Source of the DNA: Deuterostichococcus epilithicus | Taxonomy: Eukaryota; Chlorophyta; Trebouxiophyceae; Prasiolales; Stichococcaceae | Reading direction: 5' to 3' | DNA length: 64,000 nucleotides | Assembly: GCA_033439295.1 (NCBI GenBank) | Contig: JAVTLE010000007.1 | Coordinates: 930,001 to 994,000 of the forward strand | Shown: piece after piece, positions 1 to 57,378 of the stretch | Layout: each line of letters starts with the position of its first letter | Position numbering within the stretch: position 1 is the first letter of the stretch | Translations under genes and position numbers: made by a program | Notes under the pieces: model-generated | The model's input: the letters and a program-made list of their open reading frames with translations, nothing else | Told to the model about the DNA's origin: nothing | Databases searched by the model: none

Positions 1-3000
1 TCAGCAGCACCAGGCCATCTGCGTCGATGTGGCCCAGCTTCTTCAGAATGGACGTCCTGTGCAGCAAAGGAATAAAGAAGTGCACATCAGCAACCATTCG
101 CTGGGTTCGACTCCTAACGCAACGTGGCTTCGCCCTCCTGCAGTGGCGCGTGCACTGGACAGCGGGCAAGGCTTGCGCACGGGCGATCAGTATTCCGTCA
201 AAAGGCAGCAATAAAGCCAGACACTCGTCCAGCATGGCGCACAGGAGCTCGGCCGGGCCACATCTGGTTGATAAGGCCCGGCACAGGGTCCGGCTGCATG
301 GCCAGCAGCACGGCAGCTGGCGGGCGCACCGCTGCTTGACCTCCTCCCGGAAGCCGGCGAGGTGGGACTCGCGCATGCGCGCCCGCAGCGCCTCCGCCCG
401 CGCCTTCAGTTCCGCCTTCTTCTCGAACGCTGCGTGCCTGCGGCGCAGGCGGCAAGCCATCAGTCCTCCGGGGACCAGTCGCTCGGTCATGCACCCTTTG
501 CAGGCGCCAGTGCCCCTCCGCCCCACCTTCAGCTCCGCCTGCCTCCTGCACGCCGCATGCCGGCGGCACGGCGGCAAAGTTGTTGTCAGACCTGATCGAT
601 GCACGCGCTGCTACAGGAATGCCTGCACCTCCGCCGCCGCTAACGGCGACTTAGAGCAAGTTGGTGGCCTCCTTGACATCCCTCTCTGAGAGCTTCTCTA
701 GTTCTGGCGATGGCTGTAGAGTGCCAAGCTGTGGCGCATGACAACCGGCATAAAGACGATGCCAAGCTTTCAGAACACCGGCTGTCGAACATCCCGGGCG
801 CGTGGGTTGCGCACTTCTTGTCGCTGTCCGTTGTCGACGCATGCAGCGCGTTGGCCGCCAGCTGCTGCTCGAGGGTGGCTATGCGCTGCGCGGCGGCCAC
901 CAGCCCAGGGTCCTCGATGCCGACATCCTCCACAGGGTCCAGCCGCGGCAGCCCGTCCGGGTGCTTGCCCTCCAGCTCCTGCGACCCGCATTGGTTCGCA
1001 TCGAGTGGATCTGATCAAGATCAATTTAGTGTGTGTGTGCTCCAGCATAGCGGCAATAGCTGGAATGCGCAGGATGCGAACAGGCTCCCGGCCGCGGCAG
1101 CATGGAGTCTTGGCGGGTCGCACGGCAAGCAGCGCGGCGCACAGCTGCTGCAGCACGCCTCCCAGTACGGTCTGCCTCAGGCCGCGACGGCCCCGTCGGA
1201 CGCCCCGGGCTCTGGCCTTGAACCATGATGGGAGGCGCAACACGCCGACAGGAAGGCATTGTGCGGCGGCATCGGCAGCTCCTTGGGGCTCGGCGCGCAC
1301 CCGCAGCATGAGCAGCATGGCGTGGCGGGCGTCGGCTCCGCGCAGGTCCGGCGGCACCGTGACCCGCATGCTGCCCACCGCCGTCAGCAGCGTCAGCGGC
1401 ACCGGGATGACGTGCATCTCCGCGCCCGCCCCCGCGCCCGGCGCCGGCCGCCCGCCTGCCGCACACCGGGCAATGAGGGGGCGTCCAGCAGCAGCCCCAT
1501 CCGGAGGACTGTGTGCATGGGATGCGCTTGCAGGGCAGGTGGGTGAGGCCGTGCGCTGTCGGCGGGTCAGAGCGCAACATGGTGGCCGCGGCTGCAGCCA
1601 CGCGGCAGGTCGGGGCTCGACCGGTTCGTTGAAGGCAGCGACCCCCGGCAAGCCGGACGCTTGCTGATGCTGATGCTGACGGTGCAAGGCAATCACCGCT
1701 GCACAGGCGTACGCTGCAGACATGCATCTAGGACAGCAAGGCGCACTGGCGACGGAGCCGGGCGCGCAGGGTAGCAAGGTGTCCAGCATGTACTGCTCAG
1801 CCGCGCCAGGCGGGCCCGCCGCTGCATGCCCATTGGCACCACCGCTGCCGGGCTGCGCTCCCCGCCGCGTGACGCACACCACGATGCCCCAGCCCCATTC
1901 GGTGTCGCCTTCCCGAACCCGCACCTGCGAGCGGCGCATAGATTGTGAACACCTGACTTCACCCCAAAGCGCAGCCACAGACAGGCACGCAGACTGCCTC
2001 GGCAGGCACCTCAGGGCGATGCTCGCTCGCGATCGGCTCGAGTTGACTGGGCAAGCTCACCCGCCTCACAGCTGGGAGAGCCCAGAATCTCGGCCGACTG
2101 GACAGGTGCCGTGAATTGCTCGTGGGCCGCGCAAACATGGTTCAGGGTTGAGGGCTTGAGGTTTTTAGGGCGTGCGCACCAGGCGGCCAGGGCGCAGGAA
2201 GTGCAGCAGCTTCTCGGGCCGCAGCATCGCTTTCAGCACCACCGCTTCCTGCTCCCGGATGTCCTGCGCTACGCACAGCACGCTTTGTCTCGGCCAACAA
2301 CCCTGCCGCTGCTCCTGGCCCGCCAGCGCACGTGCAAATGGCTGCAGCGTTCCGGACGCCGGTTGCCAGTTGCCTGCTGCTGGCAGCATACGTGCAGGCG
2401 TGGGCAATATACGCTGCTTCTGAGCAGTGCGCCTCATAAATGGGCACCACGTGTGGCGGCAGCACTGCTGTCGCACCTGCCGCAGCTGGTGGTACTGCGC
2501 GACTGCCTCCTCGCTGACCTCGCTGATCTCAGCCGCCTGCGCCTCCAGCTCGTCCACCTGCCGCTGCGTCTGCGCTTGTGGTGAAACCCAAAAGCTCTTT
2601 GTCAAGACGGATCACTGTTGCGACCAGAGGGCCTCCAGCTCGTCCACATGCTGCTGCGTCTATGTTCGCGAACAGCAGCACGGCCTCGAGCTCCGAGGGA
2701 GGCGCAGTCCCGGTCGCAGCTCAAGGTGATAGCGCACGGCTCGTGCGGCAGTTCTGGTGCCGCAGGGGAGCTGTGAGCGGACAGCACTTGGGCAGCAGGC
2801 CCTCGGCGTTGGGGAAGAGGTTGCGGAAAACAGCTGCGGACCTCTCCCCAATCAGGCCCGCGGCTTCGGAATGTGCACGCAGATGTCTGCACACCTCCGG
2901 CAGCGAGCGCTCGAACTGGAACTGCTGGAAGGAGTTGGCGATGACGTACTCCATGTCGTGCTCGGAGCCCTCGATGCGGCGGAGCAGGTTGAGCAGCGTG

Positions 3001-6000
3001 TAGTACGACAGCTTGAAGCTGGACAGCAGCGGGCTCGGCTTGCCCTGCACTATCGACCTGCGCGCGAACATCTGGGTCAGCAAAGCACCGTTCGCCGGTT
3101 CATGAGGGGTTTTCCGGATGGGGGGTGTCAAGGTGGGAAGGTGCAACTGCTGGCTACGCCTCGGCTCCTCCTGGAGGCGGCTTGAGGCACTTGCGCAAAT
3201 CAACCTCGTCTCTCAATCGATCTTCCGCAGGACCTGTAACCCCCACAACAGGCCGCGCCCGGCTTGCTGGCAGGAGAGAAGCAGGACGGTCAGATCGTCG
3301 TGTCGTGGCGCCGCACCGGCACGCCGCTGTGTCCATTTTCTCGTCGATCATCTGGATGACGACGCCAAAGTCGTCTTTTCCGCGCCGCCCTGCCCGCCCG
3401 CTCATCTGGATGTACTCGCCGCTGCTGACCCACCGCCTCTGCGTGCCCAGGCATGACCGACGGCTGTATTCCCCTTTGGGGTTGTACATGTTGCGCAGAC
3501 TGCGGCAGGACCCGGGGGCTATTCTGGTTCGGTGCTGCTCCATGTGATCCAGCGAGACAGCGCGGTGCTGGCCTCACCCTGCCACATGACTGCGGAGCGC
3601 AGCGGAGGAGCAGCACAAAGAATGGCAGCGGGATGGCATCTGCAGCTCACCTGCGTGCCATCCCACTTGCTCATGGCGGTAAAGATGACTGTCTTCGCCG
3701 GCATGTTGAGCCCCATGGCAAACGTCTCCGTCGCAAACAGGCACTGCACCGCATGGCAACCGCACTCGTCTGGCGGGATCCTGGGGCAACAGCATCATCT
3801 GCATGCAGATCAGTGCGTTCTCGCATAGCAGCTGTTGGGATGCATGACTCTGCTAGCAGCAGCCAGGTCCGCTGGATCGACAATGTCCACCAGGCAAGGA
3901 ACTGCACCTTGATGAGCTGCTCCTGGAAGAGGATCTCCACCAGCTCCTTCAAGATGGGCAGCAGCCCCGAGTGGTGCACCCCGATACCCTGCAGGGTGGG
4001 CAGAGCTCGTCAGGACAAGCAGCAGGCAGGGTCGCCCGCCAACGTTGATGCCAATTTGTGAACGACCCCCGCTATCTACTCGGCACTTGCGGCAAGCAGG
4101 TTGACGCCTTGGCCGCAGACGCGGCGCGCACCCACCTGGGTCGAGCAGGGGCAGCAATGCAGGTGACGAGGCAAGCGCCCTCGACAGGCAGTGCTGAACC
4201 CGTTCGGCGTTCGAACCCCTTCAGCATCCCCACGTCAGGCACATCAGCACCTGGGCCCAGCGCCGCGGCCCGCACCCTTGCCTCCAGCGTCTCACCTTCT
4301 TCAGCATGGGCAGCATGCGTGCAACGGGTCCCAGGCTACGGTCCTCCTCGCTGAGGCACTGGATGGCGTTGTTGAAGACCGTCTCCACCTCCGCCGCCTC
4401 CTCTGGCGTGTTGAAGTCCAGCTTGTTGCTGACTGCCATGCCGTACTGCTCGCACTCCCTGGGGATGGGGAACAAAACCTTGAACCTCGAACGCGCCTCA
4501 GACCGAGCGGCAGGCGGTGAACACAAGTGTTCGGCCAAGTCCGAACGGCAGGCGCTTTGCCTCAAGACAGAGTGATTTTCAAGCTTCCTGTAGGTCTCGG
4601 TCTTTGCTTGCACTTCCTGGGTCATGCACCTCAGCCATGGCTCATTGACGAGCGCTCACGTCACACGAGGGGCACTGTGGAGCTCCGTACCTCACGACTG
4701 GTCTGGCTCGTCCAAAGGCTTGCAAGCCATCCAAAACTTGTGGCTGGACGAACATCCAATACGTGGTGACAGCTACAGTGCCGGCAGCGCGCGGTGGCAC
4801 CCACTTGCGGCTGAAGCTGAAGACGATGACAGGCTCGAAGCGCTTGTCCTTGACCAGGCGCAGGATCTTGTAGATGTCCGTTCCCAGGTCGCCGTCGCCC
4901 TTGCCGCCGCCGCGGCCGCCATCGCGCCCTCCACCGCGGCCACGGCCGCCGCGCCCGCCCCGGCCACCTGCACGGCGCAGGTTGGCTGCCTTCACCGAGA
5001 ATGTGCACCGGTCACCCAAACCTGTACCACACTCTGCAGCCGGCACAGACATTCGATCCCAGCGATGACAGTGATCTGCTTCGCCTTGTGATCTGCTTTC
5101 TCTTCGTGGTCTGCCCCTTCTTCGCTGATCAGCAATGACTAATATCATGTAACTGCTGCCCAGCATTGCCGCCCGACGCCGCACCTCGGCTGCCGCGGCC
5201 GCCACCGTCCCGGCCGCCGCCGCCGCCGTCGGGCGTGCCATTGGAGGCGAGCCCTGACTCGTTGCGACCCGCAGGCGGTGCGGCCTCGCCGTCTGTCAGG
5301 CCGAAGGCCTTGAAGCGCAGGTCCGCAAAGTTGGCTTCCTTGAAGCGGCCCTGCTCGTCCAGCACCTATGCCGGGAAGGGCAAGATGTGTCGCACAGGTG
5401 GTTTGCACAGGACCCTTCTGAGGGGACAGGAGCTGTGACCACAGACAGCAGACCACAGCCGTTCGCAAGGCAACCTTTCCACGATCAACAGATCTGAGCA
5501 CTGCAGCTGCAGCTCCCCTCTAGACTGCAGCGCCCCAAGCTGCAGACCAGGCAGTGCTCGAAGGGCATGCTGCCATCGAGCCGGTTCATGAGCACGGGCG
5601 AGCAAGGCGCACCGCGTACAGGCCGTTGCCGCCAATGGGAAAGGCGTAGTGCTGCAGCGGTGTGGGGCGATAGTCGGTGTACACCACGTGGCATGGCTGC
5701 CGGTGGAGCGACGCCACCCAGGCGGCAAACTCTGTCGCGTTCGCCAGCGTTGCTGAGAGAAACACCTGGCACGATGGGGTATTTGGCAGATATCAGAAGC
5801 GCGTGGTGATGCGGATGCCATGAGCCCTGCCACATGGTGACGCGCTCACATCTGCATGCATGCCGTCGACCGCTGATACCCAGTGCACAGCGCTTGATGT
5901 GGACGTCCTGGGGCAGGAAGATATAGACTGACCTAACTGCCAGCTTTGGAAAAATTTCCAGCAGTAAGCTGAGCCAGAAGGAGGAAGGAGGGCACAGTAG

Positions 6001-7744
6001 GAGCGTACCATGTGGATGTCTTCGAGCAGGAGATGACGAACTGCCTTGCACACAGACGGCAAACGACGAACAAAGAAACGCCTGTGGCGGCGGCACCAGC
6101 GCCCCCGAACGGCAAACGCGGGACACGCACCATGTGGATGTCCTTGGGCAGGAAGATGATGGACTCCTCCCACACAACGCCGCGCTCCCGGTCCTGCATG
6201 TAGTGCACCTCATCGAAGATCACCCATGCCACCTCCCGCAGCAGCTCGCTGCCCCTGGATCGGGTTGCCAAAATGACCAATCAGTTTCTGGTTTGCAGCC
6301 AATTCTGGTGTCGGGCGCGAGGCGGAGGCCATTGGAGCATCCCATGCCACCACCTCCAGCAGCAGCTCGTTGCCCCTGCAGTGGTTGCCAGAGGCACGCG
6401 CAACCTGAACTCTGTCGGTTCAACGCTTCGTTCAACGCTTAAATTGTGGTGTTGAGGGCACGCTGGATGGTGCGCTCAAAGTCCTGTTGTCTGAGGCACT
6501 GCGGGGGATGCGGCGTGTCCTGCTGCCACTTCAACCCCGCTGGTCCGAGATGCCCACAAACAGCTACGCGACAAACTGGCAGAGTGTGCTTGCGATGCAG
6601 CCTTCCACACATACCTCCGGCATACCCTGGCAGAGCCCTGCAGAAGGGAGGTGCTCCTGCTGGACGGGGGAAAACGAGAAGGAAGTCGCACCGGTACAGC
6701 ATGGAACGCAGGATCTCGGTCGTCATGACGACGCACGCGGCGTTGGGGTTAATGGAGACATCGCCTGTCATCAGCCCCACGTCATGAAACTCCTCGCTGA
6801 GCTCACGGAACTTCTGGTTGCTCAGTGCCTGTGCGCATGGAACGCAGACGTGGCGTGTTGGAGCGCCACAGCCTTTGGTCGCACTTGCGGGCGGCCCCTG
6901 GCCGCTGGCGCTGGCGCCCCTAAAACTGCCATCACTCAGGACGCAGGGCGCCTGATTGAACACGCCACATTCATGTGGTGAAGCAATGCGATGGACAGCG
7001 CTCATGCCGGAGAATCTTCGCCAACCTTGCCGCCCCGTTCCCCCAGCTGACCTTGAGCGGCGAGGTGTAGATGACGCGCTGCTTGTCGCGCCACGCCATG
7101 GCGATCGCATACTCAGCGACCGCAGTCTTGCCCGCTGACGTGTGCGCCGACACCAGCACCGACTCCTGCCGCTCCTTTGGGCAGGAAGCAGCCCCGGCAG
7201 AGATCAGTGCCCTCCGCCGCAGCTCACACGCATCAGGCCAAGCTGCTGCATTGCGTGCAGGGCGGATCAAGACGCTTCATTGCAATACGGCTGGCGTCCG
7301 GACCCCGGGCCGTGCACAGAGCTCTTGCGCACCAGGCAAGCCACGGCCGTGCTCTGGAAGGGGTCCAGCTTGAATGGGTACTCCTTTGCCATGGTGCCGT
7401 GCCATGCCGGCTCCTGCAGTGTGCCTGCGTGCGGCATGCGTGTTGTGTAGGAATGTGACAATTGCAGTGTCGGAGGCGACATTCATGATCGACGTGAGTT
7501 TGCTTATTGCTCGTATTGCTGTGTGCAGCGCAGCGCCCACACCGTGCAGCGCAGGGTCGAGACTCCTGGTGGCCTCATCGAACTCCGGTGGCACCTCCAC
7601 TTCGTGCTTCAGCACCGGAATCGGCCGGGTCCGCTTGGGCTTGGGTGCTGAGGCGCTTGCGTCTTCGTCATGCTGCTCCCTCTTGCGTTTGGCGGCCTCA
7701 CGTGTGGCAGCAGCAACCTTCAGACCATCCTCTGTGGCTTCCAT
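1..7744 (-). CDS. MTR4: MTR4-type exosome-assisting DExH RNA helicase (partial, C-terminus beyond left edge)
   Basis: Ski2-like helicase that feeds nuclear RNA to the exosome. Start chosen at 7744 ([10 protein letters not shown]), since the longer reading begins with TTG. Exons seen: 7543-7744, 7333-7424 ([11 protein letters not shown]), 7052-7174 ([17 protein letters not shown], Walker A), 6692-6828, 6131-6254 (VIFDEVHYM, motif II), 5613-5765 ([14 protein letters not shown], motif III), 5154-5365, about 4805-5005, 4296-4458, 3908-3988 ([11 protein letters not shown]), 3651-3743 ([13 protein letters not shown]), 3317-3438 ([12 protein letters not shown], motif VI), 2895-3057, 2467-2569 (coiled start of the arch), 2180-2263, 1747-1924 (WGWGIVV, KOW-type arch), then smaller exons about 1235-1530, 850-985 ([11 protein letters not shown]), 640-720, 330-590 and 1-60 ([11 protein letters not shown]). 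MTR4 is favoured over SKI2 because of the [16 protein letters not shown] context and arch motifs. An RG-rich stretch (about 4900-4990) sits where other MTR4s have a short linker. The 5154/5005 intron boundary is unresolved. Head-to-head with the methyltransferase, 265 bp between start codons. Confidence 0.93.
2631..2664 (-). repeat. Echo of MTR4 arch exon 5' edge
   Basis: 30 of 34 bases match 2541-2574, exactly 90 bp away. The real exon follows GCGCAG|ACGCAG; the copy follows CATAG|ACGCAG, so an acceptor AG is kept. Confidence 0.92.
5893..6036 (-). repeat. Two echoes of MTR4 motif-II exon 3' edge
   Basis: 6005-6036 and 5893-5925 repeat the real edge at 6127-6160 (encoding FLPKDIHMV plus donor), spaced about 115-120 bp. 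The nearer copy keeps CCACATG|GTACG next to real CCACATG|GTGCG; the farther copy has lost the GT. Confidence 0.88.
6341..6390 (-). repeat. Echo of MTR4 motif-II exon 5' edge
   Basis: Matches 6223-6270 at an offset of about 118 bp (CCCATGCCACC, CAGCAGCTCG, TGCCCCTG, GTTGCCA). The acceptor is kept: CTGCAG|GGGCAACGAG beside the real ATCCAG|GGGCAGCGAG. Confidence 0.9.
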
Positions 7745-8009
7745 CGCAGCGGACAATCAAGTCACCGCCGTTGCATCATTAATACGACATCACGGTGCAC
7801 GTCACGCGGCCAACGATGTCGATCTGCGCACCTGCACTTGCGATCTGTGTGTGTCGGCAATCTGCTGCAGGGCGGGCCGTGAATCGACCACTGCGACTGC
7901 GATTTGGCGCGAGTCATTTCGATTTTGAAGCTTTGATCGTCGCTTCAGTTCAGGCTTCACAAGACAAAGTCGCCCTGCGCACATGCCCCATAGGCAAGCG
8001 TTCTGCACA
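7745..8009. promoter_or_regulatory. Divergent promoter interval, MTR4 / methyltransferase
   Basis: The 265 bp between the two opposed start codons must hold both 5' regions. I see no clear TATA box. An in-frame ATG at 7983 gives the methyltransferase a possible nine-residue longer start. Confidence 0.5.
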
Positions 8010-10307
8010 ATGACAGACAGGGTTGATCCCGCGGTCGCAGACGGCGCGGCACAAGCACCTGACGCCAAGACTCCTGCCGACGAGCTGCTGTCAGAGGACG
8101 ATGCAACAGCCCAGGCCAGATGGGAGCAGCTCAACGAGGAGGAGCTGCAGCAGGAGATCGCGCGGTATCGCACATCGCTGCAGGGCTTGGCCACAGACCT
8201 GGCCTCCGCTGGGTTCGGCGCCGATCTCCAGCACGGCGATCGCTCAGGTGCAATGCATTACCACGTGCAAGCAGCCCTTGATGCATGCGCGACTTGTGGT
8301 GTTAGTACAGGTATCGATAATTTTGTTAGGCGACGGATCCTGGCGACATAATCAGGCAATGGCGCTGGGGGCGCGGCGACCGACAGCGGGCTCGGCCTTG
8401 GTCAAGAGGGGTTGGACTATCAGCTCGGGTCGGTCGACGATCTGGAGCCTTCCGAGTGGCAGGTGCGCAATTGGATCTGGTGGACCGTGGGGCCATGGTC
8501 ATCTGCTGTTATCAAGAGGCATGCACACACATCGCGGCTTGCTGCGGGATGATCCAACTCGGCATGTGTGCCGGCAACAGCAGCCTGCTGACAGGACAGT
8601 GCTGCACGTGTTTTGTCATGCCTTCTTGTCATGGTGGACTGAATGCGCCCCTGGCATATGGCAGGTGCCGCCGCACTGCATTCCTATCCACGCAAACGTG
8701 ATGTCCTACGACTGGAGCCAGCTGGCGGCCACGACGCAGTTCGACGTCATCATGATGGACCCGCCATGGGCGCTGGCGACTGCAAACCCCACCCGAGGTC
8801 AATGTGCTGATCGCCCACTGCGGCTGTTGCAGACATACTCTTAGTGTCGCCTGCACATGGCGGTCATGAGGCTTGAGGGGTGCACCCTCAGGTCACACGT
8901 TTGAAAACTCAAGGCGATTGACTCAACACGTGGGAAGGCAGACGCACATCTAACATTGCAGTCTATAAAATAGATGGATTTGTGGCTCCAGGCGTGGCGC
9001 TGGGGTACAGCCAGCTTACGGACGCGGACATTGTCAACCTGCCAATCCCGCGATTGCAGACCGCTGGCTTCCTGTTCGTGTGGGTCATCAACGCCAAGTA
9101 CAAGTTCACGCTGGACCTATTCGAGCGCTGGGGTTACACGTACGACTTTGGCACCGGCTGCTGCGAATGCCGCTGTGCCACTTTCAAGAGACTGTTGCAG
9201 CACTGCCTGGGTCTGCGATTGTGCATCTCGTGCTGCTCTGCGTGCATCTCAAGCCCGCTCATCTGTGCGGCTTGGAACTGGACATTGGAAGGGTGCGCTG
9301 CACCGCTCATACGTCGATTCCAATTCCGCACCGTGCAGGGTGGTGGACGAGATCGTTTGGGTGAAGATGACTGTCAACCGGCGCCTGGCGAAAAGCCATG
9401 GCTACTACCTGCAGCACGCCAAGGAGGCGTGCCACCGATTGGATGCCCCCGAATGCCTGCTTTCTTGTCTTCTGTGGCTTTTGCACCACGAGCCGGCGTC
9501 CGTCATGTGCAGGTGCCTTGAGCTGATCGCCTGTCTAGACTTATGGCACGGCAGGCCGAGTTGCTGCTCTGCCATATGGCAGCGCACGGCCAGTCCTATG
9601 TGAAGCTCTGGACCGAGACCTGAATCACAGTCTCAATGAAATAATGTGTGGAACTTGAACCTCCAGGTATGCCTGGTGGGGCGGAAGGGAGACGACCCGC
9701 CGGGGATGCGGCGCGGCGCCGGCAACGACGTCATCTACAGCGAGCGCCGGGGGCAGAGCCAGAAGCCGGAGGAGATCTACCAGCTCATCGAGGAGCTGGT
9801 GCCCAACGGTGCGCTCGCCCTGAGAAGTCTGAAGGCCATGCTTTTGATTCTGAATATTTATGGACCTGGTGCCCATTGGTAGCGCTTGTCCTAACGTCAT
9901 CTACAGAGATGCCGCTGATTGTCATCTGGTTCTGCTGCTTCTGGGCTCGATGGCACGGCACATCTTTGCCGACTGATGCACTGACGCCGAATGATGCACG
10001 GGTGCGCACTGGCCAGGCAGGTAGAGGGCAATTGTTCCACTGGTTGCTGCTGACATCTGGTGATGCGTCCCAAAGAGAACAATCCCTATACTGATGCGCT
10101 TTGATTCGTTGATGTGCAGGCAAGTACCTGGAGATATTTGGCAGAAAGAACAACTTGCGCAACTACTGGGTGACGCTCGGCAACGAGGTCACCGGCACAG
10201 GGCTGCCGCCAGAGGACCGCACTGTGCTTGCCGGCGCCTTGGGCGTACCAGGCGCCGTGTATGGCCGCAGGAACGAGCAGCAAGCAGCTTCGCCCATGAC
10301 AACTTGA
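8010..10307 (+). CDS. MT-A70 family adenine-N6 methyltransferase, AMT1/MTA1-like
   Basis: SAM-dependent methyltransferase. Seven exons: 8010-8247, 8356-8462, 8665-8797 (end +/-1), 8992-9139, 9339-9426, 9667-9808, 10120-10307; about 347 residues. The N-terminus is acidic and coiled. The catalytic DPPW sits in DVIMMDPPWALATANPTRG; the core continues GYSQLTDADIVNLPIP, GFLFVWVINAKYKF, VVDEIVWVKMTVNRR, GYYLQHAKEVCLVGRKG, SQKPEEIYQLIEELVP, and ends FGRKNNLRNYWVTLGNEV. DPPW shows the active subunit type rather than the METTL14 EPPL type. The NPTRG after DPPW and the HGYYLQHAKE block differ from METTL3 (PYGTMSDDE, GHWLNHGKEH) and recall the ciliate MTA1/AMT1 group that methylates DNA. That assignment is from memory; METTL3-like mRNA activity is the alternative. 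Intron 5 (9427-9666) has a GC-AG boundary. TGTAA lies at about 10397, 90 nt after the stop. Confidence 0.85.
9863..9892 (+). repeat. Echo of methyltransferase exon 6 3' edge
   Basis: Within intron 6, this segment resembles 9793-9821, the last 16 exon bases plus donor, at an offset of 70 bp. Both read GA-CTGGTGCCC followed by a G|GT donor-like step and then GCGCT. A second short block (GTCATCTACAG at about 9895) also recurs from the exon at about 9730. Confidence 0.7.
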
Positions 10308-15289: not shown

Positions 15290-18200
15290 CTACAGGTCGA
15301 CGTTGGCGGCGCGGAAGAACGCCATGCACAGTGGGCGGCTGGCCTTGGCGATGCCGAGGATGCCCAACTGCAGCACCACATGCAAACCAGCATTGAGCCG
15401 GCCGGGTAGCCAGGGCAAACTAAGGCAAGACACCGAGCCAGGCAAGACTCCAGAAATCGAGGCACAAGACGACGTGCAAGTGTGGACACCAGCATGGTGG
15501 AAGACGAGTACAACATCGGCAAACAAGCGCAAGACGCACCGGCAGCTGCCAGAGGCCGTCGCCAACCATAAGGCCAGCGCCTGCGGGAATGCCCAACAGC
15601 GCGGCGTGGACCGGGCTGACCATGCGCCTGTTGCAAAAGGGGCAGAAAACACGTGAAGAAATGTTGCTGAAAGCCTGGCATCATGCTCTGCTGCTTGCCA
15701 ACCTGAACACATGATACAGGTGCAGCTCGCACAAGCACACGAGAGCTGCCGTTTGATTGCAAAACAGTCTGCAGAGGCCACCGCCCATACGGACGTGCAA
15801 AGCAGCAGCCAGGCCGCGGTGACATGAGATGCAGCACACTCACCACAGGCAGGGGGCGACCACGATTTTCAAGCTGTGCAGGGTGCAAGAGACAGCTGCG
15901 TGTGGGAATGTTTTCAAGACGCACCAGATGAGCATGATGGCGCCGCCCATGCAGAAGTCGATGGCGATGGGCGCGCCCACAAAGAAAGGGATGGACACCG
16001 CGGACGGGATAGGCACGAACTTTTTGTACGTGCCGGGAACTATAAAGTCCTTGATAAGGTTGACTGCGATTGCAGCGCCCACCAGACCGGCTGCAGGAAG
16101 CAGCAACAGGGAACCCGTCAAGCCCCTGCTGGCAGGGGTAGTTTGCAGGTGACTCCGCACGGCAGAGTCCTGATCAGAGGGTTTGCGACCCGCGGAGTTC
16201 ACAACACCACCTGACAAACTGCTGACGGGGCCCGCCGGGGAGCTGTGCGCAGGGCGCAGCAGGGCTCGAGGCTGAGTGTAACTGCAACTCTTCACCCAAG
16301 TCGAGACCCGGGCAGATCGCTGAAGTTGATGGCAGAACGACGACCGTGTGGCAGCGAGACCACACGACATCATGGCACTCGCATGACAGGGGGAAAAAGC
16401 ATGGCTGCCACACCTGCGATAGAGAGGCAGTGGTCCGGCAGGTCGTTGAAGCCGTTGGCGGACACGACGGCCATGAGGCGGTACACGGTCGCAAAGGGCA
16501 CCGAGTACTGGGTGCCGGGCACGCCGATCGGGAAGGAGGCGGTGTAGAACTTGTAGATGGCCGGCGCAAAAAGGACACCGACAAAGGAGCCGGCCAGCTG
16601 CGCTACGAACAGCGCCTTGGGCGACGCCAGCGTGTAGTAGCTGCGCAGGGAGGCATTGCAAAGGTGATCAAGACTGGTGCTGGCAGCATGTGACAGGATC
16701 GCATCCGCATTGCTAGCACCACAGGTGCCCCTCAGTTCGAGCCAAGCCCGCAAATCGACCTTGCGTCAATGAAAGAGACGCAGAGTGCTGATTGTGTTTG
16801 ACGCCTGCCGGAGGCTGAAAAGGTAGAGCTGCCACATCATGTGGTGGTGTCTGCTTGTCTGGCGGTGCAGCAAAGCAGCGATGACACGACAGGCCAACAG
16901 CCAGCGCGACCGAATTTGCAGGGAGGCAGCTGACGAAAATCTCGAGAGCTGCGAACGTTGTGTACCACTCCCGCAACATCACCACGGCACCAGCGATGCC
17001 GCGGATGTCGTGAGAATACTTGCGTGGACTGTTGCAGTGCAAGGGCGCGAGCAATACGCAATGGGGGGGCATCATCGGGGGCCTCACCCGGTCCGGAAGT
17101 CCTGCATCAGCACCGCGGCCTGCGACACAGCGGCGACCACGACGCCGCAGATGGCAAGACCCGCAATGACGCCGCCATTGCCGACACCAGCCCACGCCGC
17201 GAAGATGAAAATCGCGAACTGGCCGTACACGCTGTAAGAGAGGAGGATGTGCCGGCGAGTCAGCCACTGAGCTTGACAGGTCACCACCATCCACCATTCG
17301 CCCACTGTGTTGTGGATGCAGCAGCTGTGCAGCAGGCCAGCGAAACGGCACATGCCACACACCAAAGCTCGCATACGTTTGCCCACATGATGGTTGTATG
17401 GCTGATAGTTCAAAGGGACAGGAAACCGCACGAACCTGTAGTTATCCTGATCCGTCAGGCCCGCGGCGTAGGCATTGGCTAGTGCAAAGAACGGCACGAA
17501 CAGGAATGCAACGATGAGGTAGTACCTGCAAGCGCACAGGGGCATGGATCAGAAAGGTCCACCGTTTCTTGTCCGACATGGCGTGTGCTGGCAGGCAGTG
17601 CCCCATCACACGGCATAGCGCATGAAGCAAGGCAGCGCTCACTTCAACTCATGTCGTGCCAGTCATGTGCAGGAGCCCACCACTTGACGGGCGGGTAGAT
17701 GTGGGGGATGGCGATGCAGCCGATGACCATGCAGGTCAAGTAGCCGCCCAGGGAGACGCCCCTGCATGCATTTGTGTCACCTTTGAACACTGGAAACGAT
17801 CGTACAACATGCACATGCCACCTGGTCCGTCACGTCCGGCGTCAGCATGCCAGCGACAACACCAGCAGGGCAACCTCAAGAAGCGCAACACCATGCCATG
17901 ACTGGTGTCTGATGGCGCACCAGTGGATGTCGTCCTTGAGGAAGACGCGCTTGCGCAGGCGGCGCTCCTCCGGCGTCTCGCGCGTCGTCAGGCCCACGTG
18001 CAGCGGGTCGTCGACCACCTGCACAGCACCGAGACAGGTATGACGAGAGAGTGCGAAAAACGACCTGCTGTAAGGACTGCAGCAGGCAGGCACGTCGCAG
18101 CAGGCTGCCAGCCCTCCGGCGCCCGCTGCAGGCGCGCTTGAGTGGAGCTCTTCGGGCTGGGCTGCGCACAGAACTGCGGACTGGCGGCTCTGCTGTCACG

Positions 18201-34536: not shown

Positions 34537-37500
34537 TCATTTCTGCACAATGGTCAGCTCGCCGCCGGTGACCTCGGCCTCCGGGATCTTGATGCGCAGC
34601 TTGCGTGCCAGCTTCTCCACCACGAAGGCCTCGCCGGGCGTCACCAGCGACACGACCGTGCCCTTCCTGCACACGACACATGCTGTGCGCTTGTGGAGAA
34701 TGTTTCATGTAGGCTGGGGCAGCCCATGCTCCACCGGCAGGGAGCACAGCAAGCATGCTGACTGAGCAGAGCCTCAGTCGATCAATGAGCTTCAGGATGG
34801 AGTTGCAAACACGCAGAGCGAAGTGCCTTAGAGTGCAGCCGCAGCCGCCTAAACCCTGCTCCTGCGCCCTGCTGTCTCGGCGCACTGGACAGGTGTTACA
34901 GCAAGCTGCGCGCACCGCCCGATGCGGCCGGTGCGGCCGGCGCGGTGGGCGTAGGAGGACGCGTCGGACGGCAGCTCCAGATTGACGACGACATCGCAGT
35001 CCTGGATGTCGAGTCCCCTGGCCGCCACGTCGCTCACGATCTGCGGGTCGGCAGCACACGCTGCACAGTTGAAGGTCGTGTGACAGGCGGCACGCGGCGG
35101 CCGTGCTCGCGCGGGTGCTGCGGGCAGGCAGGCAGGCGATGACTCCATGCAAGATGCAGTTCGATGCCGCGGGAATTCCTGCTCAATGCAACTACGCTGA
35201 GCGCCAGGGACGTCAAGGGTCTGCCTGCAGAGCAGGCCCTGACCATAAAACCCTTCCATGATGTTGATAATGCACGTGCGCGGCGCAGCGCCGCACCAGG
35301 GCACGGTAGTCGCCGGCGCGGAACCTGGCCAGGATGGTCTGCCGCTGCATCTTGTTGAGCTCCCCGTGCAGGCAGGCCGCCTTCATGCCGCTCGCCTCCA
35401 GCTTGAACTGCGTGTCCTGCGCGGGAGGCGGCGGACGCAGGTGAAGGGCGGAACAGATACAGAATTTGGTGAAGCAGCGTCGAACCAGGCCTCGAACCAG
35501 GATCTGCTGCCTCCAGCAGCACAGGCGGCACTGCCACAGGTGCTGTCTGCCCGGCACCCAAGGCTCTAGCTTGAGGCGCGTCCCGGCGGCGATGGCCAGA
35601 TGCCAGATGCTGCTGCTGTGCCTGCCCATATCGACGAGGGCCACTCTTTCCAGTGCACGCCTCGAGGCTCTGCTGGAAGTTGATGAAGACCGGGCCGTGG
35701 TCAACGCCGCCTGAAAACCGATCCGTTTGGCATGCACCTCACAACAGCTCCCTCCATCACACACTCACCTTGAGTCGCTGCCGGAACTTCAAGAAGACGA
35801 GGGGGCACGGCCGGTGCCGCCCAAAACGTGTTTGTTCGTCTCCTGTCCACCGCCCGTCTTGCCGTTGCCCCAGAGCGGGATTTCGTTAGGGCAGCGCTTT
35901 GCTGTGTGTAGAAAAGTTCAAGGTTGAATGGTTTTGAGTTGGCTCACCTTGAGGCGCTGCTGGAAGTTCATGAAGACTAGGGCGCGGTCGGCGCTGAGCG
36001 CATGGATGCAGCGGCGCAGGGCGTCCACCTTGTGCCGCTGCCCGACCACCAGGCGCACGTGCTCCAGGTGGGGCGGCAGCGCCAGCCCCGCCTCCGCGGC
36101 GCCCGCCTGCTGCGCCTCCGCGCCTGTGAGGGTCGTGACGAAAGACTTTTCACAAGACTTCTCCCTGAGAGTAAACGTCTGACGACTGTGCTCCAGGTGG
36201 GGTGGCAGCGTTAGGCCCGCCTGCAACGCGCCCGCCGACTGCTGCGCCTCCGCGCCTGATTGGATCATATCCCGAAGTTTCAAATGAGTCCGGGATGTGG
36301 GGTCGCTTTGAGAGTCCCAGAGACGAGTTGCGGCAGCGGCGGCAGCGCCAGGCCCGCCTCCGGGGCGCCCGCCTGCAGCGCCGCCGTGCCTGGTAGCCTT
36401 GACAGCGGCCACTGGGCATGTGCGCAAGCATCAGCCGTGATGACAGCGGGTAAGGTAACTCATTATCGAAAATTTGAATATGGGGTGAGCATGCCACGGT
36501 GGTGACTTGTGGACACACAGGCAGGCAGCATGCTCGCTGAGAGGGTGTCCGTGGTGCAGGGCCAATTCCCTCGAGCATTCACAGCGCCAGCCTTTCATTG
36601 TCGTGAAATTGATTCGAAATTGGAAGCGCCGTCGAGGGTCAAGGTGCGCACGCAGCGGCTGGTGGCCGGTGGTGTCCCAGCCCCACTGCGGCGCTGCCGG
36701 CGCCGCCGACGCGGCTGTGCTGGACTGCTGCTGGTGCAGCTGCTGAGGGTGCGGCTGCTGCTGCGGCTGGGTGCTGTCCTGCGGCAGAGCCGGGGCGCCG
36801 CCCGCCGCCGGGGCGAGCCCCTCCGCCGGCGGTGCGCCGACGACCACCGGCTGCAGCTCGGGGCACCAGGGCGCGCAGGCGGCCAGCACGCTGGGAGTCA
36901 GCGTCGCGGACACCAGCACCGTCTGCCGCCCCTCGGCGCACCGCTTGCCTGCACAGGCGGGCCGCAGGTCGTTCAGTCAGCACGCCGGGCCAGACGGTGC
37001 TTTGCAGGGCGCAATTGTGGCCATGTAGCTCCAGGTGGGCCCAAGAAGTTCATGACCGTGCACAAGCCGCCACAATCAAAGCTCGGACTTACGCTAGCCA
37101 TGCAGTGTAACATCCCGAAGCGTAGGGCCGCGCACTCGTCATGAGTGGCGGCCCTGTCATACGAGGCTGCCAGAAGATGCGGCGCATTCTCGGCTGAAAG
37201 ACAATGCGGTCGCTTCACCCCCAGGCGCACCCACCCATGTGCTCCAGGGGCGCAATAGGTCTTTCCCCCGACTCTTATGCCCACTCCCCGGACATCAGGC
37301 ATTCCGGACCCGGATCCCGGCCGCACCGGTGTGCTCCAGGAGGCGTGAGAGGTCCTCCCGGAAGTGCGGCGCCAGCAGCTGGTCCGCCTCGTCCAGCACC
37401 AACGCTGGGGTGTGGTGCGTCGCCAGCCGCCCATCGCGGCTCAGCTCCGCCAGCCGCCCGGGCGTGCCCACCACCAGCACCGGCCGGTTTTCTTTCAGCG

Positions 37501-39538: not shown

Positions 39539-42500
39539 ATGCAGTCCACCCACACGAAATTCGCGGCGCCTCCGTATCTCGCGCAATGGTACGATGTCGA
39601 AGGAAAGATCGGCGAAGGCACGGTGAGTTCAGCGCTGACCCGACGGTGTGTGTACCGACCACCGCTCAGAGTGGAAGAGAAGCAGACGTGAAGTCGAGTA
39701 TGCCAGCTTCTGAAAATCGTGCTTGCGCTGCACAGTTCGGTGTCGTGTATCTTGCTCGCGCCCGCAACAACCGCTCCAAGCTGTTGGCTATCAAGACCAT
39801 GAAACCCACAAAGGCAGGTCCCTTTGACAGCCGTCGCTGTGCAAGCTCAAGCCCAATGGTGCACAGCAGCCAATAATATACGGTGAGGCTAGACCTGCCG
39901 ACTTGATTTGGGCACGTCGCTGCTGCGCAGGAGTCTGACGGCATTTCGCCAACTGCCATCCGGGAGATCATGCTGCTGAAGGAGATCAAGCACGAGCACA
40001 TTGTGCGGCTGGACAGTGTGCACCTGAACCGCCAGGTACCGGCATGCAGGTCTTCTTTGGGGCTTGGGGATTGCACAACTGGCATAAGGAGCCCACGCTG
40101 CATGCCACATGCAAACTGAAGTCACCGACATGCTGCTCTATGGTGCCGCAAACAGGACCCGTGCCTGTCGCTGGCATTTGATTACGCGGACCACGACTTG
40201 TACGAAATTATCCGCTTCCACCGCGAGCGGCTGCGCAATGCGTCCATGGCCCTATATACAGTCAAATCCCTGATGTGGCAGCTGCTCAATGGCCTCAGCT
40301 TCATGGAACAGGTGAGCGTTGGTAGCCACAAGCAAGCCAACACGAAATCGACTGTTGTGTCAGATGCTTGCTGGTCCAGCGCACATGTATTTTGCCGCAA
40401 GCATAGCTCACACTTGTCAACACCTGCTGCAGCACTGGGTCATGCACCGGGACCTGAAACCGAGCAATATCCTCGTGATGGGCGAGGGGCCAGAACAGGT
40501 GTGCCTCCCTCCTCATCTCGTCCCTGTGGCCTGTCATTCATACAGTCCTTCAACCTTGCATTCAAATGGTCTGAGCAAGGTTCGGTGCAGCAGTCGGTAC
40601 CTTGGGTACGGGCAAAATACGCGCTGTTGCCCAAGCGCAGGGTAAGGTCAAGATTGGGGACTTTGGCCTCGCACGCATTGTGAGGGAGCCGCTGCGGCCG
40701 CTGTACGACAATGGTGTCGTGGTGAGCTTGTCCTGATTTTGCAAGCCTCAGTTCATTTGGGGGCTGTGCTACATCACCCGTGAGGCTGTGCTGCAAGGAA
40801 GCTTTGGCATGAGGCATATTGATGTTTGCCGGCGACTTATCAGGTAGCTAGTATCGAGGAGCCCACTGCTTCCTGCAGGTCACGATCTGGTACAGGGCTC
40901 CCGAGCTGCTGCTGGGTGCAAAACACTACACCAGGTGCTGCCGCAGACATCGATTGCCTGTAAGAACTGGCCACCGGCCGCGCTGATACATGCCGGTCTT
41001 CAGCCTGCGTCATGTCGCCAAAGATCACATGTTGCAGGCCAGAGCGACAGTGTGCCAAGTCATCTGGCGCGACAGGATTCCCTGAGCTTGCACTGGCTGT
41101 ATGCAGCGCGGTCGACGCCTGGGCCGCCGGCTGCATCTTTGCGGAGTTATTAACGCTCAAGCCGCTGTTCCAGGTAGTTCCAGACTGGCTACATGGATTT
41201 GAACGATCTTCTTGAACATCATTGAAGGCATATAATCGTACAGACTTTCCGATTAAATGCAAGAGAGATTTTAAGCTCGCTAGTCCAGGGCGAGGAGGAC
41301 AAGCGCCACAACGACTCCTTCCAGCAGGACCAGCTGGACAAGTGCGTCCAGTCTGTGTCGGGATTTTTGGCAAACTCGACTGTCCAACACTTTGACAGCA
41401 TTCGGAGACGTTTCGATTTAGGACTCGGCATGCTGAAACGACACACCCATCAACCTCGTGCGACCTTGACACCTCGACGCTCGCGGCCTGCAGCATGCTG
41501 CGTGAGGTCGATTGACTTTCTCAGAGGGTCAGCAGCACCCCTGCCGCACCGACCGCCAAATACTGAGACTGTGACCGTCGTGGCGTGCAGGATCTTCCGC
41601 ATCCTCGGGCACCCCAGCCCCAAGGTGTGGCCGTCGCTGGAGCTGCACTTCAACTGGGCGGACAACACAAACAACATCCGCGTGCGCAAGCCGGACGCCG
41701 GCAGCACCACCCTTGACGAGGTGCGGGTCGGCAGCTGATGTGACCACGTGGTCCCGGTGTACGGCTGCCGTGGTGTGTCACGCAGAGCGGCGGCAAAGCA
41801 ATGACAGCACACTCTTGACCGCTGACTCTAACCTGGCCAGCGTCATGCGAGCTGCCCCGCACAGACCCTACCCCTTGTACCTATTGCAATGCAGCTTCCA
41901 TGCCATGCTGATCGATACATGACTTGGTGCCGGCTCCACAGCCATGCTGCATGTTGTGATGGCGCCGGCCCAGGATGCTTCACCAGCCGCCTGACTGCCC
42001 CACGGATTGAAATGTCTCCACTGGGGCGCGGCGCATGCGCCGCACATGCAACATTGCAGGCGGGCCGCAGGTGCTGCCTTCGGGCTGCGCCGCACTGAAC
42101 CTGCTGTCTCGGCGGTATAATGTAGTCGCCCGACGCGTATGTAATCTGCTGCGGCGCAGCACATGCGCAATGCGGGCGGGTCGCACACGCTACCGCCGGG
42201 CTGTGCCGCGCTGGACCTGCTTGCGGGGCTGCTGACTTACGACCCGATGCAGCGGCTCACCGCACAGCGTGCGCTGCAGCACCCCTTCTTTGCTGAGGTG
42301 AGAACACAGGCAGGCGGCCTGGGTTGGGTGGCAGTGGCTGTTGAGCTGTATGCCAACCCTCGCTGCGAAACCACCATAGGCGGGCGGCCGGGGTTGAGAG
42401 GCGGTGGCTGTTGAGCTGTCTGCACAGTCCTCGCTGCGGAACCACCATAGGCGGGCGGCTGGAGCGGGCGCCAATTGCTCCGGTTGTTGAGCCGTGGGCG

Positions 42501-43768: not shown

Positions 43769-50155
<6,387 letters not shown>

Positions 50156-52752: not shown

Positions 52753-53415
52753 AGCTGTTGAGGCTTGTCTATAAACATACAGGCGCCATGGCCGAGGGCA
52801 CCACGTATCAAATTCAGCACTTGACTGTTTCCTTTGCACGCCAATGGGCCCGAGCTGTAAACCATGCTGAATGAGACAACTCGCGCCCCCTTTCCGCCTG
52901 ATGCTGCAGCAAACGATGCACACACACTGCTCGCGTTGTTCACAGCAACTGTGCCTACACTGCGCGAGAGACACCTACCGATCCGCAAGTACAAGAATGG
53001 CATGACGAAGTTACAAGTTTGAGGCCACAGACACGTCTCCAGCTCGGTGATAAACATTTGTGTGGTGGAGCCATCTCCTTCTGCAGGAGCGACGAGGTAT
53101 GCCAAGTCAAACTAAAACGAGTCGGAGTCGCCTAATGAGAAGCAAGTCAAAAGGTCTGAAGCACACGCGGCGGGCCTGCAAAGGAAGGCCTGTAGCTGCA
53201 CATGCTGGTTCTCAAAGCAGCCCCAGCCTGAACCTGCCTACGAACCCTCGTACGCCTTGCCATCTCCTGCTGCTTACGCCTTGCCAACTCCAGTCGCGAG
53301 TGCGGCGCTCTCTCAGTCAGCACAGCCAGGCCCCGAAGTTGGCGCCCCATGATCCATTTCCATAGGTAAATATACACGAGCCAGCGGTGCGCTGGCCCCA
53401 ATGCCTGAGGCGGCC
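52753..53415. other. Convergent 3' interval, small TM gene / MinE
   Basis: 660 bp with the 3' UTRs. TGTAA at 52856-52860 serves the plus-strand gene. No other gene is seen. Confidence 0.45.
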
Positions 53416-54950
53416 CTAGGTCCCGAATGGGAAGCGCGAGGACGGGTCCGCGTCAGGGTCCTCCTCGTCCCACTCCACCTCTGCCAGGCCCTGCAGCATT
53501 GCGAGGTCATCGCTCAGCTCTCTACAATAGAGGGCGCACGGCCTGGCAGCCGCAGAAGTGCACAGCTGGAGAGGGGGGGGCTGTGGTGCAGAAGCAAGAG
53601 TATAGGCGTACATGGTTCGCAACAGCAGTTGCCAGTTGAAGGCGGTCTTGAGGGACACGCTGCCAGCACAGCGCCTCTGTTCTTCATTGGGCCGGAACTG
53701 CAACGCGGGAGAGGGGGGGGCCCCGGCAGCCATGGCATGCCTCCAAGTTCTCCTCGTCCAGGCCGACACACAGGGCGGGCTCGACGCGCTCTGACGAGCA
53801 TGTTGACAACGGCAACATGGCTCATAATCGAAACCTCAAGCGCCCGGCGGAAGGGACCGAGAGAGGCAGCCGGGGCGCGCCTCCATGTTTTCCTCCAGGC
53901 CGACGCGGGCGGTGGGCTTGACGCGCTTGACGGGCAGGTTGACAGAGTAGATGGTGCCCAGGTCGTCGTCCGTGGTGATGCTGACCTCCACCAGCTCCTC
54001 GCCCTCCACCTCCACGTAGTTGGACACCGCCGCCACGATGCTGGACCTGCGCGGGGTTTATGATTGTGAAATTGGGAGTCGGTGAGCCGGCCAGAAGAGG
54101 ACGGCCGTGCAGCGCTGGGATGCGGTGCAGCACTGGGCTCCCATGCAGCCCGGCCTTCTCTGCACAGTGTGCTGTCTGGCCTGAGTGGCTGCGCGACCCA
54201 GCGACAATGCAGAACCGCAGTCAATGTGCACGTCGTTCGCATGGGTGCTGAGTGGCAGCACTTGCCATCAGGCGGATCGTAACAGTTCAAATGAAACCTA
54301 GAGGCCGTGAACCAAGCGCACTTCATGTCGGTGAGCGAGGAAGGGTTCATTGCGCAGCGGTCCGCGACGAGGATCATGCGCAGCCGATTGCGCCCCTGCT
54401 CCTTGGGCGTCAGGTTTCGCTGTTGCACCGGAAAGAAGATGCGGTACGCTGCGGCACACTTGGTCAGGAACTCTGACACGGGGTTGGCCACCCGCTGCTG
54501 CTGCTCTCCCGATGGCGTCCTGGTCACCTTACGCCGCGCCGCCGCGACAATGTCCTGAACTTCGTCGTTACCGCCTGGTGACGACCGCATCCTGCTGTCG
54601 GTCGGCCGCCCCATGGCCTCCTGCGTCGAGCCGGCGGCGCAGCGCGTGGCTCCGCGAGATGCGGGCCTGCTGCGGGCGCCGGGTAGCTTTCGCCTGACAG
54701 GCAGCCGGCAGCCGTGTGCTTGGCGGACCTGCAAGGCGTTGAAAAGACTTTGGACCGTGGCTGTCGGCAAGGACGGCGCCACAACATGACTACAATCAGT
54801 TGTGGTTGCAAGAGAGGGCGCACAAGTGATGCAAGGGTTCCTGCCTCACACCGCATCGAGCTGTCAGATCCAACGCCGGCTGCACCGTTCGAGGAATGCA
54901 GGAACGCGCACCTGTTGGCACGAGGCGGAGGCCAGGCAGCCTCGAGGCAT
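53416..54950 (-). CDS. minE: Plastid MinE, cell-division topological specificity factor
   Basis: Sets the plastid division site with MinD. Four exons: 54912-54950, 54322-54728, 53881-54046, 53416-53517; 237 residues. The leader (MPRGCLASASCQQVRQ, then Arg-rich, GATRCAAGSTQEAMG) is a transit peptide. The mature part: RVANPVSEFLTKCAAAYRIF, KEQGRNRLRMILVADRCAM (anti-MinCD/MinD-binding region), SSLTDMKSSIVAAVSNYVEV, TDDDLGTIYSVNLPVKRVKP, then an acidic tail (EVEWDEEDPDAD) ending SRFPFGT. Nucleus-encoded, intron-bearing MinE is what plants and green algae have. The first exon is inferred from a clean donor and matching phase. Intron 3 keeps frame only with a GC donor (ATGGAG|GCGCGC). Confidence 0.92.
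53721..53807 (-). repeat. Echo of MinE exon 3 3' edge
   Basis: Matches 53861-53944 at an offset of about 140 bp: GGCAGCC, GCCTCCA-GTT, TCCTC, CCAGGCCGAC, GGGC-TGACGCGCT and TTGACA recur in order. Real donor GGAG|GCGCGC, copy donor GGAG|GCATGC: both GC type. Confidence 0.85.
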
Positions 54951-55733: not shown

Positions 55734-57378
55734 ATGCAGCAGCAGCTGCAGTCCGCATCGTACGGCGTAGACAGCCTGCAGAGTGCTGTGCTGGCGCCGC
55801 GGCAACCACTGGCGGCATCTAATGCGGCCATCCGGAGAGGCGTCTCAGCGTCAGCCCAGAACGATCTGACGGGCACCTGGAAAATGGACAAGGTGGGGCA
55901 TCAGATGCCGCTCTCGATCCGATACCGATGCGAGTGATATTTAGTGCATGACGAGCTTGAACTAGAATGTGTGCGGGGAACCTTGTGGATCTCGCATCGA
56001 TGCAGCACCGATGCCAGCAAGTAGACAGGCTGGACCGAGCCCCACGTCGCGGGGCTCCTTGCATTTACTCCAAAGCAATGTCCGCACCTGGGTTTTGCTG
56101 CCGGCAGGCAGCGAGCGACTCCATGGACGCCGCGTGTGACGCGGTGCAGCTGTCGTGGGTGCTGCGAAAGGGGCTCAAGGTGCTGTCCAAGCTGGAAGTG
56201 GAGGACACTCCGGACGGACACTTCGTCACGCGCATCAAAGCTGGCGGCATCATGGACGTCGTTGAGCGGTGCGGACGTTCTGCGCTACCAGAGGGGCTAG
56301 TCTGGCATGTGCATGACATCTGAAGACATTCCTGTACATCAAGGCCGGTGGCATGGTGGACATAGTCGGACGGCGCATCGCATGTTTCGCAGCAAGATGA
56401 TTGATGTCGGCGGGAGCGATTGCGCAGATGGACCCGCTTCCCTATTGCGATGCGTCCGATCCTGGAAGCATGGCGCTGGCGTGCGTGCCAACGATTTGAT
56501 GTTCCGTGAGAGTGCCGCCGTCAAGCAGTGGAGACCTCCAGCAGTCGTGGCTCTCACAGCAGTCTGCGCGCTTGGCACGAATGGCGAGTGTTTCATTGGC
56601 GCTGGCCACGCCTGGCACATCAAGCGGTGCTGCATCGCCGTTGGTTTGCTCAGCAGTCGCTAACTCTGTGCTGCCAGGTACCCCTGGACCGGAGAGGTGG
56701 TGCTGCACAACAGGCGTGATAAGCGGCGCGGGCAACACCGCGGATCCGTCTCGCGCACCGAGGCCGGCCCCTGCATCCAGTGCGTCTTCATGCAAACCCG
56801 CTGCGCATCCAGACCGCATCCAGGCAACCAGCCGCCCAGCGGCTGCTCTGTGCCCTGCCGCTGCTGGTGTTGTCTGGCTTTAGACACCACCGATGGCCCC
56901 CGGTTGGCAGACCATGATCTGCCCAAGCCAGCCTCTGCAAACGCGAAGATCAACCATCGACGACCTCGGCGCTGCAAGGGCGGACGAGAGTTGCATGTGC
57001 GACCCTGACGCCGGGCGCCGTGCCCTCCTTTGTGCAGTGTGGAGTGGGACAACCCGCACGGCGGCGTGTGCGACGACATTTTCCAGCTGAGCGAGGACGG
57101 TTTGGAGCTCGTACAAGTCACGAATATGATCATCAGGGACACGCAGCAGCACGTCGACTACAAGTGCATTCTTCTCCTGCTCCTTGCTGCTGTTGTGCCC
57201 GATAATTCCTGCTGGTTTGGCTGGAACCTTTGCAATTGCCGCTGCTATGCTGTTTGTTGTTCATTGATCCAACGTGTGGTCCTCATACATCGTCTGGTTG
57301 TGGTTCAACGTCGATGCAGTTCTCGTGTTGAGACTTTGATGCTTGTTCACCTGCAGAACGGTGTACAGGCGAGCCTGA
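55734..57378 (+). CDS. Small calycin (lipocalin/FABP-like) candidate protein
   Basis: Five exons: 55734-55892, 56108-56268, 56678-56779, 57038-57163, 57357-57378; 189 residues, intact. Residues 1-42 look like an organelle leader (PLAASNAAIRRGVSASAQ). Then NDLTGTWKMDKAASDSMDA, the G-x-W start seen in lipocalin-like barrels; LSWVLRKGLKVLSKLEVED; a run of short alternating strands (HFVTRIKAGGIMDVVERY, WTGEVVLHNRRDKRRG, EDGLELVQVTNMIIRD) and the closing VDYKTVYRRA. This beta-rich order with paired Arg suits a hydrophobic-ligand carrier, but I cannot name a family with confidence. Intron 2 carries an echo of the exon 2 edge. The gene ends about 620 bp from the convergent lipin gene. Confidence 0.72.
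56322..56380 (+). repeat. Echo of calycin-like exon 2 3' edge
   Basis: Resembles 56216-56276 about 106 bp downstream of it: GACA-TTC, ATCAA-GC-GG-GGCAT, TGGACGT or TGGACAT and the final CGG step recur in order. Its reading gives FLYIKAGGMVDIVG against FVTRIKAGGIMDVVE. Confidence 0.8.

Follow-up and report, generated by a model that had tools for sequence, protein, structure and literature searches.

Exon edges in the green alga Deuterostichococcus epilithicus recur, as diverged copies, inside the introns that adjoin them, a pattern that we call exon-edge echoes and that was followed from one 64-kb stretch (the window; positions 930001-994000 of contig 6, JAVTLE010000007.1, assembly GCA_033439295.1) into other parts of the 46.8-Mb, 21-contig genome. 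An earlier note on the window had described such copies in several genes and expected an edge to match its own intron more often than shuffled pairs match. The pattern is confirmed, and it reaches beyond the window: a strong own-intron copy (z>=5) was found at 51 of 756 exon edges (6.7%), in 51 of 378 introns, and in 0/756 shuffled edge-intron pairs, 0/279 exon interiors and 0/392 far edges. The echoes likely record repeated short tandem duplications across splice sites. Tandem duplication is demonstrated as the origin of part of them, and the anomaly is the loss of the intron half of the duplicated unit.

To our knowledge, the lengthening and turnover of introns between bursts of mobile elements are poorly known. 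If echoes record such duplications, they would represent one route of intron lengthening, and the 274 kb examined hold dozens of self-labelled events, each echo giving its exon, its distance and its relative age (the ages are relative only). Because the events are self-labelled, the process is measurable and would give a clock for intron growth. The echoes are also a warning for gene finders, which can mistake them for exons.

Sequences, gene models and tests

Besides the window, the sequence examined comprised 170 kb sampled from five further contigs and 40 kb, held out, from another four, in total 274 kb or approximately 0.6% of the genome. HSP70 exons were set by alignment to a close relative, P0003 (92-100% over most exons), which has no introns and lies on a 2,324-bp contig; that contig is too short to hold the HSP70 introns, and P0003 is therefore probably a transcript. 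The best-matching algae among named HSP70 relatives were trebouxiophytes, for example Elliptochloris (80%) and Coccomyxa (74-76%). A gene finder trained on the HSP70 exons (seed codons with G or C at position 3 in 90%) returned 457 introns with a median length of 225 bp, and outside HSP70 all exon edges are its predictions. Predicted donors are mostly CAG/GTGCG and predicted acceptors GCAG/G (slash at the junction); approximately 12% of predicted donors in the whole sample have GC instead of GT. The gene finder retrieved most HSP70 exons and added a few false ones, such as the echo at 45455-45489, and it also took an MTR4 echo (6319-6375) as an exon. The gene models of MTR4, MT-A70, the DEAD helicase, the kinase and MinE match Pfam; no Pfam match was found for the calycin-like gene model.

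Each exon edge was compared with its own adjoining intron, using foreign introns, exon interiors and far edges as controls and a cut-off of z>=5; exons shorter than 60 bp and introns shorter than 90 bp were left out. Repeats spaced by less than 45 or more than 330 bp, or scoring below 16, were excluded from the count of intron-intron and exon-intron repeats. From 77 edge-echo pairs collected, the 62 with homology at most 12 bp from the junction and at least 20 bp aligned were retained, and the flank and neighbour-exon decoy tests were run on 56 edges with z>=4.5. One low-complexity edge (W 58816) was excluded from the mismatch-clustering, spacing and double-echo counts and is still among the 62 pairs.

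Frequency and controls

Echoes recur in all three sets, with 12/218 positive edges in the window, 31/414 in the 170-kb sample and 8/124 in the held-out 40 kb. Both kinds of edge are copied, as the earlier note had described, acceptors at 36/378 and donors at 15/378 edges; all eight held-out positives are acceptor edges (donor edges 0/62). Introns with an echo are longer, as had been supposed, with a median of 434 bp vs 272 bp without (the 272 figure includes control rows). Direct repeats 15-645 bp apart number 233, vs 24 at 1000-1630 bp (score >=16, window and 170-kb sample), and their spacing shows a hump at 105-165 bp. The held-out 40 kb gave a weaker contrast, 109 at short vs 57 at long distance, which we attribute to minisatellite-like arrays in held-out segment L020, where positions 6416-6905 and 7867-8313 are dense arrays of this kind within predicted introns. 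Inverted repeats are hardly enriched (15 vs 5 at score >=16, 37 vs 31 at >=14). In a search of the whole genome that scored the best candidates only, the HSP70 intron matched only itself and its own exon, and no second locus was found in the genome search for the HSP70 intron or the helicase stretch.

Echoes in the window

The echoes of the window are given below with the strand of the gene, the exon whose edge is copied, and the z of the match.

512..577, minus strand: unnamed gene, exon 330-437, acceptor edge; matches 388-455, z 11.6
2631..2661, minus strand: MTR4, exon 2477-2569, acceptor edge; matches 2541-2571, z 7.5
6350..6390, minus strand: MTR4, exon 6131-6254, acceptor edge; matches 6229-6270, z 10.1; called an exon by the ab initio predictor
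6004..6031, minus strand: MTR4, exon 6131-6254, donor edge, nearer echo; matches 6126-6153, z 13.2
5897..5922, minus strand: MTR4, exon 6131-6254, donor edge, farther echo; matches 6132-6157
16311..16352, minus strand: putative OPT-like transporter, exon 16414-16640, near the donor edge (23 bp inside it); matches 16437-16479, z 7.2
36188..36242, minus strand: DEAD helicase, exon 35948-36123, acceptor edge, nearer echo; matches 36059-36113, z 12.4
36338..36392, minus strand: DEAD helicase, exon 35948-36123, acceptor edge, farther echo; matches 36072-36126
35764..35817, minus strand: DEAD helicase, exon 35948-36123, donor edge, nearer echo; matches 35943-35994, GTGAG retained, z 13.1
35655..35707, minus strand: DEAD helicase, exon 35948-36123, donor edge, farther echo; matches 35942-35994
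42028..42105, plus strand: CDK8-like kinase, exon 42160-42297, acceptor edge; matches 42151-42221, z 10.5
45455..45507, plus strand: HSP70, exon 45546-45722, acceptor edge; matches 45558-45599 with 93% identity across 42 bp, z 18.7
48050..48105, plus strand: HSP70, exon 48177-48283, 22 bp inside the acceptor edge, a weaker echo; matches 48199-48251, z 5.2
47416..47486, plus strand: HSP70, exon 47111-47280, donor edge, a weak echo; matches 47249-47318, z 4.2, below the z 5 line
53725..53808, minus strand: MinE gene, exon 53881-54046, donor edge; matches 53865-53944, z 13.8
56337..56361, plus strand: calycin-like gene, exon 56108-56268, donor edge; matches 56233-56257, z 5.2

Most of the genes named by the earlier note reappear here: MTR4 (three edges), the DEAD helicase (two), HSP70, the CDK8-like kinase, MinE and the calycin-like gene. 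The MT-A70 methyltransferase drops out (best z 1.9, p 0.07), and two genes missing from that list are added, an unnamed one at 330-978 (z 11.6) and the putative OPT-like transporter with exon 16414-16640 (z 7.2). A kinase domain was found in the gene with exon 42160-42297, its CDK8 label being that of the earlier note.

Protein P0003 runs from SQRQ directly into the residues of the next exon, and the 45455..45507 echo is absent from it. The suggestion that echoes seed new introns or alternative splice sites found no evidence; a comparison with a spliced relative was possible for HSP70 alone, and that relative omits the echo.

The 691-bp HSP70 intron contains a wholly intronic tandem duplication (45905-46152; lag 153-156, approximately 85% identity over 96 bp), and a 70-bp tandem repeat of 2.2 copies (42305-42502) directly follows the last predicted kinase exon. 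The MinE gene has introns and lies at 53416-54728 on the minus strand, on the same contig as MTR4 and HSP70; the calycin-like gene is separate from it, at approximately 56108-57163.

Spacing and decay of the copies

Echoes lie in direct orientation in the intron on the same side as the copied edge, and their exon part is 29-77 bp long. The nearest copy is a median of 122 bp away (83-189 bp, 5th-95th percentile, 48 edges), a somewhat wider range than the 70-140 bp given by the earlier note. Where two copies form a series, the first spacing is 132 +- 32 bp and the second 124 +- 23 bp (12 pairs), and the inner exon end is nearly common to both copies (mean difference 6.8 vs 16.5 random, P 0.0008). 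The nearer copy is the more exon-like at 12 of 15 edges, with two ties and one reverse. Splice bases are often retained, as had been reported, with AG in 14/27 acceptor and GT or GC in 15/21 donor cases.

Mismatches fall on all three codon positions alike (0.196/0.168/0.210; 62 pairs), gaps of 1 bp make up 56 of the 87 gaps in echo alignments, and transitions at CpG are 2.4 times those at other C or G. From these features, and from the lack of clustering among mismatches, the copies look non-coding and appear to be ageing in place, although stops are few among the altered codons (below). An impression that larger gaps came in multiples of three was gone on proper alignment, where 1-bp gaps dominate.

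Where the homology ends

Identity is 0.78 on the exon side up to the junction (48 of the 77 cases, those that can be recognised by exon sequence at least 15 bp inside alone), 0.75 over the first five intron bases, where unrelated real splice sites reach approximately 0.73, and 0.578 vs 0.556 by chance beyond them. The outer end of homology lies at most 13 bp from the junction in 47 of the 52 pairs that reach within 12 bp of it or cross it. With splice sites of other genes as decoys, a copied intron flank is detectable at 13/56 edges vs 2.8 by chance (12/52 and 12/62 in earlier versions of the test). Among echoes whose exon part is at least 85% identical, 13 of 15 reject neutral co-decay of the flank, and 5 of 15 still score above shuffled flanks. 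In a full-pipeline simulation of neutral tandem duplication, 38 or 47 of the 62 flanks were expected to have z>2, vs 6 seen. The best fit has the intron half drifting approximately 6-8 times faster than the exon half, and drift 4 or 2 times faster gives 11.2 or 22.5 such flanks, respectively.

Plain tandem duplication would copy the intron flank too, and the mechanism proposed in the earlier note, tandem duplication across the splice site, thus holds only in part. What stands in its favour are complete tandem arrays (40344-40670 of sampled contig C4 and 19393-19643 of C1) and the flanks copied at 13 edges; what speaks against it is a flank match far below neutral expectation. The sharp end of homology at the splice core calls for either exon-anchored renewal or exon-limited copying, and either would be new to us as a general habit.

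Proposed origin

The reading that we favour, with a probability of about 0.4, is that echoes began as tandem duplications of approximately 120 bp across a splice junction, the exon half being later renewed from the exon while the intron half drifted. In a first step, visible in a minority of cases and supposed for the rest, a unit of about 50 bp of exon edge and 70 bp of intron would be duplicated in tandem, which places the copy on the same side as its edge. Repetition would yield a regular series with the nearest copy usually the least altered. Splicing would then stay at the exon-side junction and the copy would age as non-coding DNA, as it does in HSP70 and presumably elsewhere. Finally, the exon, held by selection, may overwrite nearby copies through recombination or template switching. 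The intron half would soon lose its match because it has no fixed master and both of its copies change, so that only the exon and the core splice signal would remain recognisable. The net outcome would be longer introns carrying short-lived images of exon edges. Renewal of this kind would fit the spacing, the common ends and the fading intron halves.

Several points weigh against this account. The renewal step itself was not observed, and since mismatches are not clustered within copies (longest identical run 12.8 vs 13.4 permuted; 52 echoes), it would need to replace the whole exon part at once. The missing flank homology at 43/56 edges is equally explained by a copy that was exon-limited from birth. 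The intron half of the C4 array is about as similar as its exon half, so intron halves are not always the faster-drifting ones. Stops account for 2 of 350 altered codons, below our informal expectation for junk sequence. In double echoes 126 sites are altered in both copies vs approximately 80 if the copies were independent, an excess that comes in part from the two complete arrays and from columns beyond the homologous stretch; the same base is found at 58 of these 126 sites, where one in three would give 42. The joint excess and the shared bases together indicate that the copies descend mostly, and not wholly, independently from the exon; the largely independent descent counts in favour of the account.

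A broader statement is possible and, in our judgement, rather doubtful: that exons keep printing images of their edges, ending at the core splice signal, about 120 bp apart with the newest nearest, each renewed or copied from the exon alone. If true, such exon-printed images would be an exon-bounded form of intron growth, apart from transposons, introners and plain tandem repeats.

Alternative explanations

Exon-bounded copying, in which a piece of the adjoining exon, reaching as far as the core splice signal (approximately 5 bp into the intron), serves to fill an intronic break or stalled copy and the intron half is never copied, is a serious if somewhat unlikely alternative. It accounts directly for the fall in identity just past the junction and for the 13 well-kept echoes that reject a co-copied, neutrally decaying intron, and the spacer is unlike the flank beyond the echo in 42 of 48 cases (test at p<0.05). 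The 13 edges with a copied flank run counter to it, however, and neither regular spacing nor common inner ends would be expected of independent patches. Its variant with spliced mRNA as template was rejected. A first scan gave 19/2142 junction-spanning copies within the own gene vs 1/2034 shuffled, a difference that vanished against decoys made of the own half and a foreign exon half: the neighbour exon adds nothing (3/56 at p<=0.05), and a copy across the exon-exon junction gains on average 1.52 vs 1.61 for the decoys (56 edges).

A plain short tandem duplication spanning the splice site, followed by neutral decay in which the intron half fades sooner because both of its copies mutate, is improbable as the whole explanation. 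The complete arrays and detectable flanks are what it predicts, and the ratio of intron-intron to exon-intron repeats (14:62) is, by our estimate, roughly that of uniform placement with twofold decay. In the simulation above it nevertheless predicts several times the flank matches observed, and it can be fitted only if the intron half drifts at some 6-8 times the rate of the echo.

Break repair inside the exon would insert filler with a new splice signal together with a long duplication of the edge, leaving the old splice site in the echo and the new one at the exon. In 234 kb the spacers find no relatives beyond the arrays to which they belong and some short, weak matches; most of them are unlike the echo flank, and the splice-site bases in echoes resemble decayed real sites, all of which would suit such an event. 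We nonetheless consider it quite improbable: the duplication must end at the splice core every time, and the old full site should stay in use. The base composition of the outer echo flank is intermediate and favours neither side. Snap-back during break repair is expected to leave inverted copies, and was rejected on the near absence of inverted-repeat enrichment.

Very little probability attaches to the echoes being second exons, whether tandem, mutually exclusive or conserved as splice decoys. Retained splice signals, the calling of some echoes as exons by the gene finder and the scarcity of stops speak for it; against these, codon positions mutate alike, 1-bp gaps dominate, the copies span an edge of 29-77 bp and not a whole exon, and the intron-free HSP70 relative lacks the echo, so that tandem and mutually exclusive exons were rejected.

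Chance or artefact (composition, gene-finder bias, assembly error) is hardly credible, for although the edges outside HSP70 come from a self-trained gene finder that took some echoes for exons, all three controls were empty at z>=5, the main HSP70 case is anchored by protein alignment, and the decay is mutation-like with its CpG excess.

Relation to known systems

Introners are sequence families common to different genes, and they cause genome-wide intron change in algae. Echoes are like them in the latter respect and differ in not being shared between genes. Introners were rejected as a source: among 452 introns there were three matches at E<=1e-4, none of them an introner family, and neither shared spacers nor introner families were found in 234 kb.

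Introns can be gained by tandem genomic duplication of an exon segment bearing AGGT (reviewed in PMC3443670), which, like the echoes, is a short tandem duplication with exon sequence and splice sites. In that model, as the review presents it, the duplicated unit corresponds to the intron, with ends mirroring the far-side exons, whereas echoes lie inside an existing intron, on the same side as their exon, and do not extend into the neighbour exon. Under that model copy distance would equal intron length; the observed medians are 122 bp for the distance vs 434 bp for the introns with an echo.

The Exonize catalogue (PMC12343006) describes partial, inter-boundary and intronic exon duplications in more vertebrate genes than full ones; its exon copies, like the echoes, lie inside introns and are potentially degenerate. 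That tool reports categories and, as far as covered here, describes no series of the edge-specific, splice-bounded and regularly spaced kind. Rogers and Bendich (2025; PMC11782384) describe direct repeats of 4-30 bp (mean 11.4) that, like the echoes, are found at or near exon-intron borders. Those repeats join both borders of one intron, whereas echoes are approximately 29-77 bp long and join an edge to the inside of an intron. The titles and abstract openings of the open-access papers retrieved, subscription literature being outside the scope, gave no splice-bounded series of exon edges in introns.

Other intronic repeats

The three intron-intron matches of the introner search are one echo array, one inverted-repeat element and one 29-bp inverted match between neighbouring introns. 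The inverted-repeat element lies in introns of two genes, at 26618-26809 of the window and at 32184-32406 of the contig C3 sample; the two have arms of 41 and 93 bp, have the motif GTCCATTTGT in common, and likely belong to a family of miniature inverted-repeat transposable elements (MITEs).

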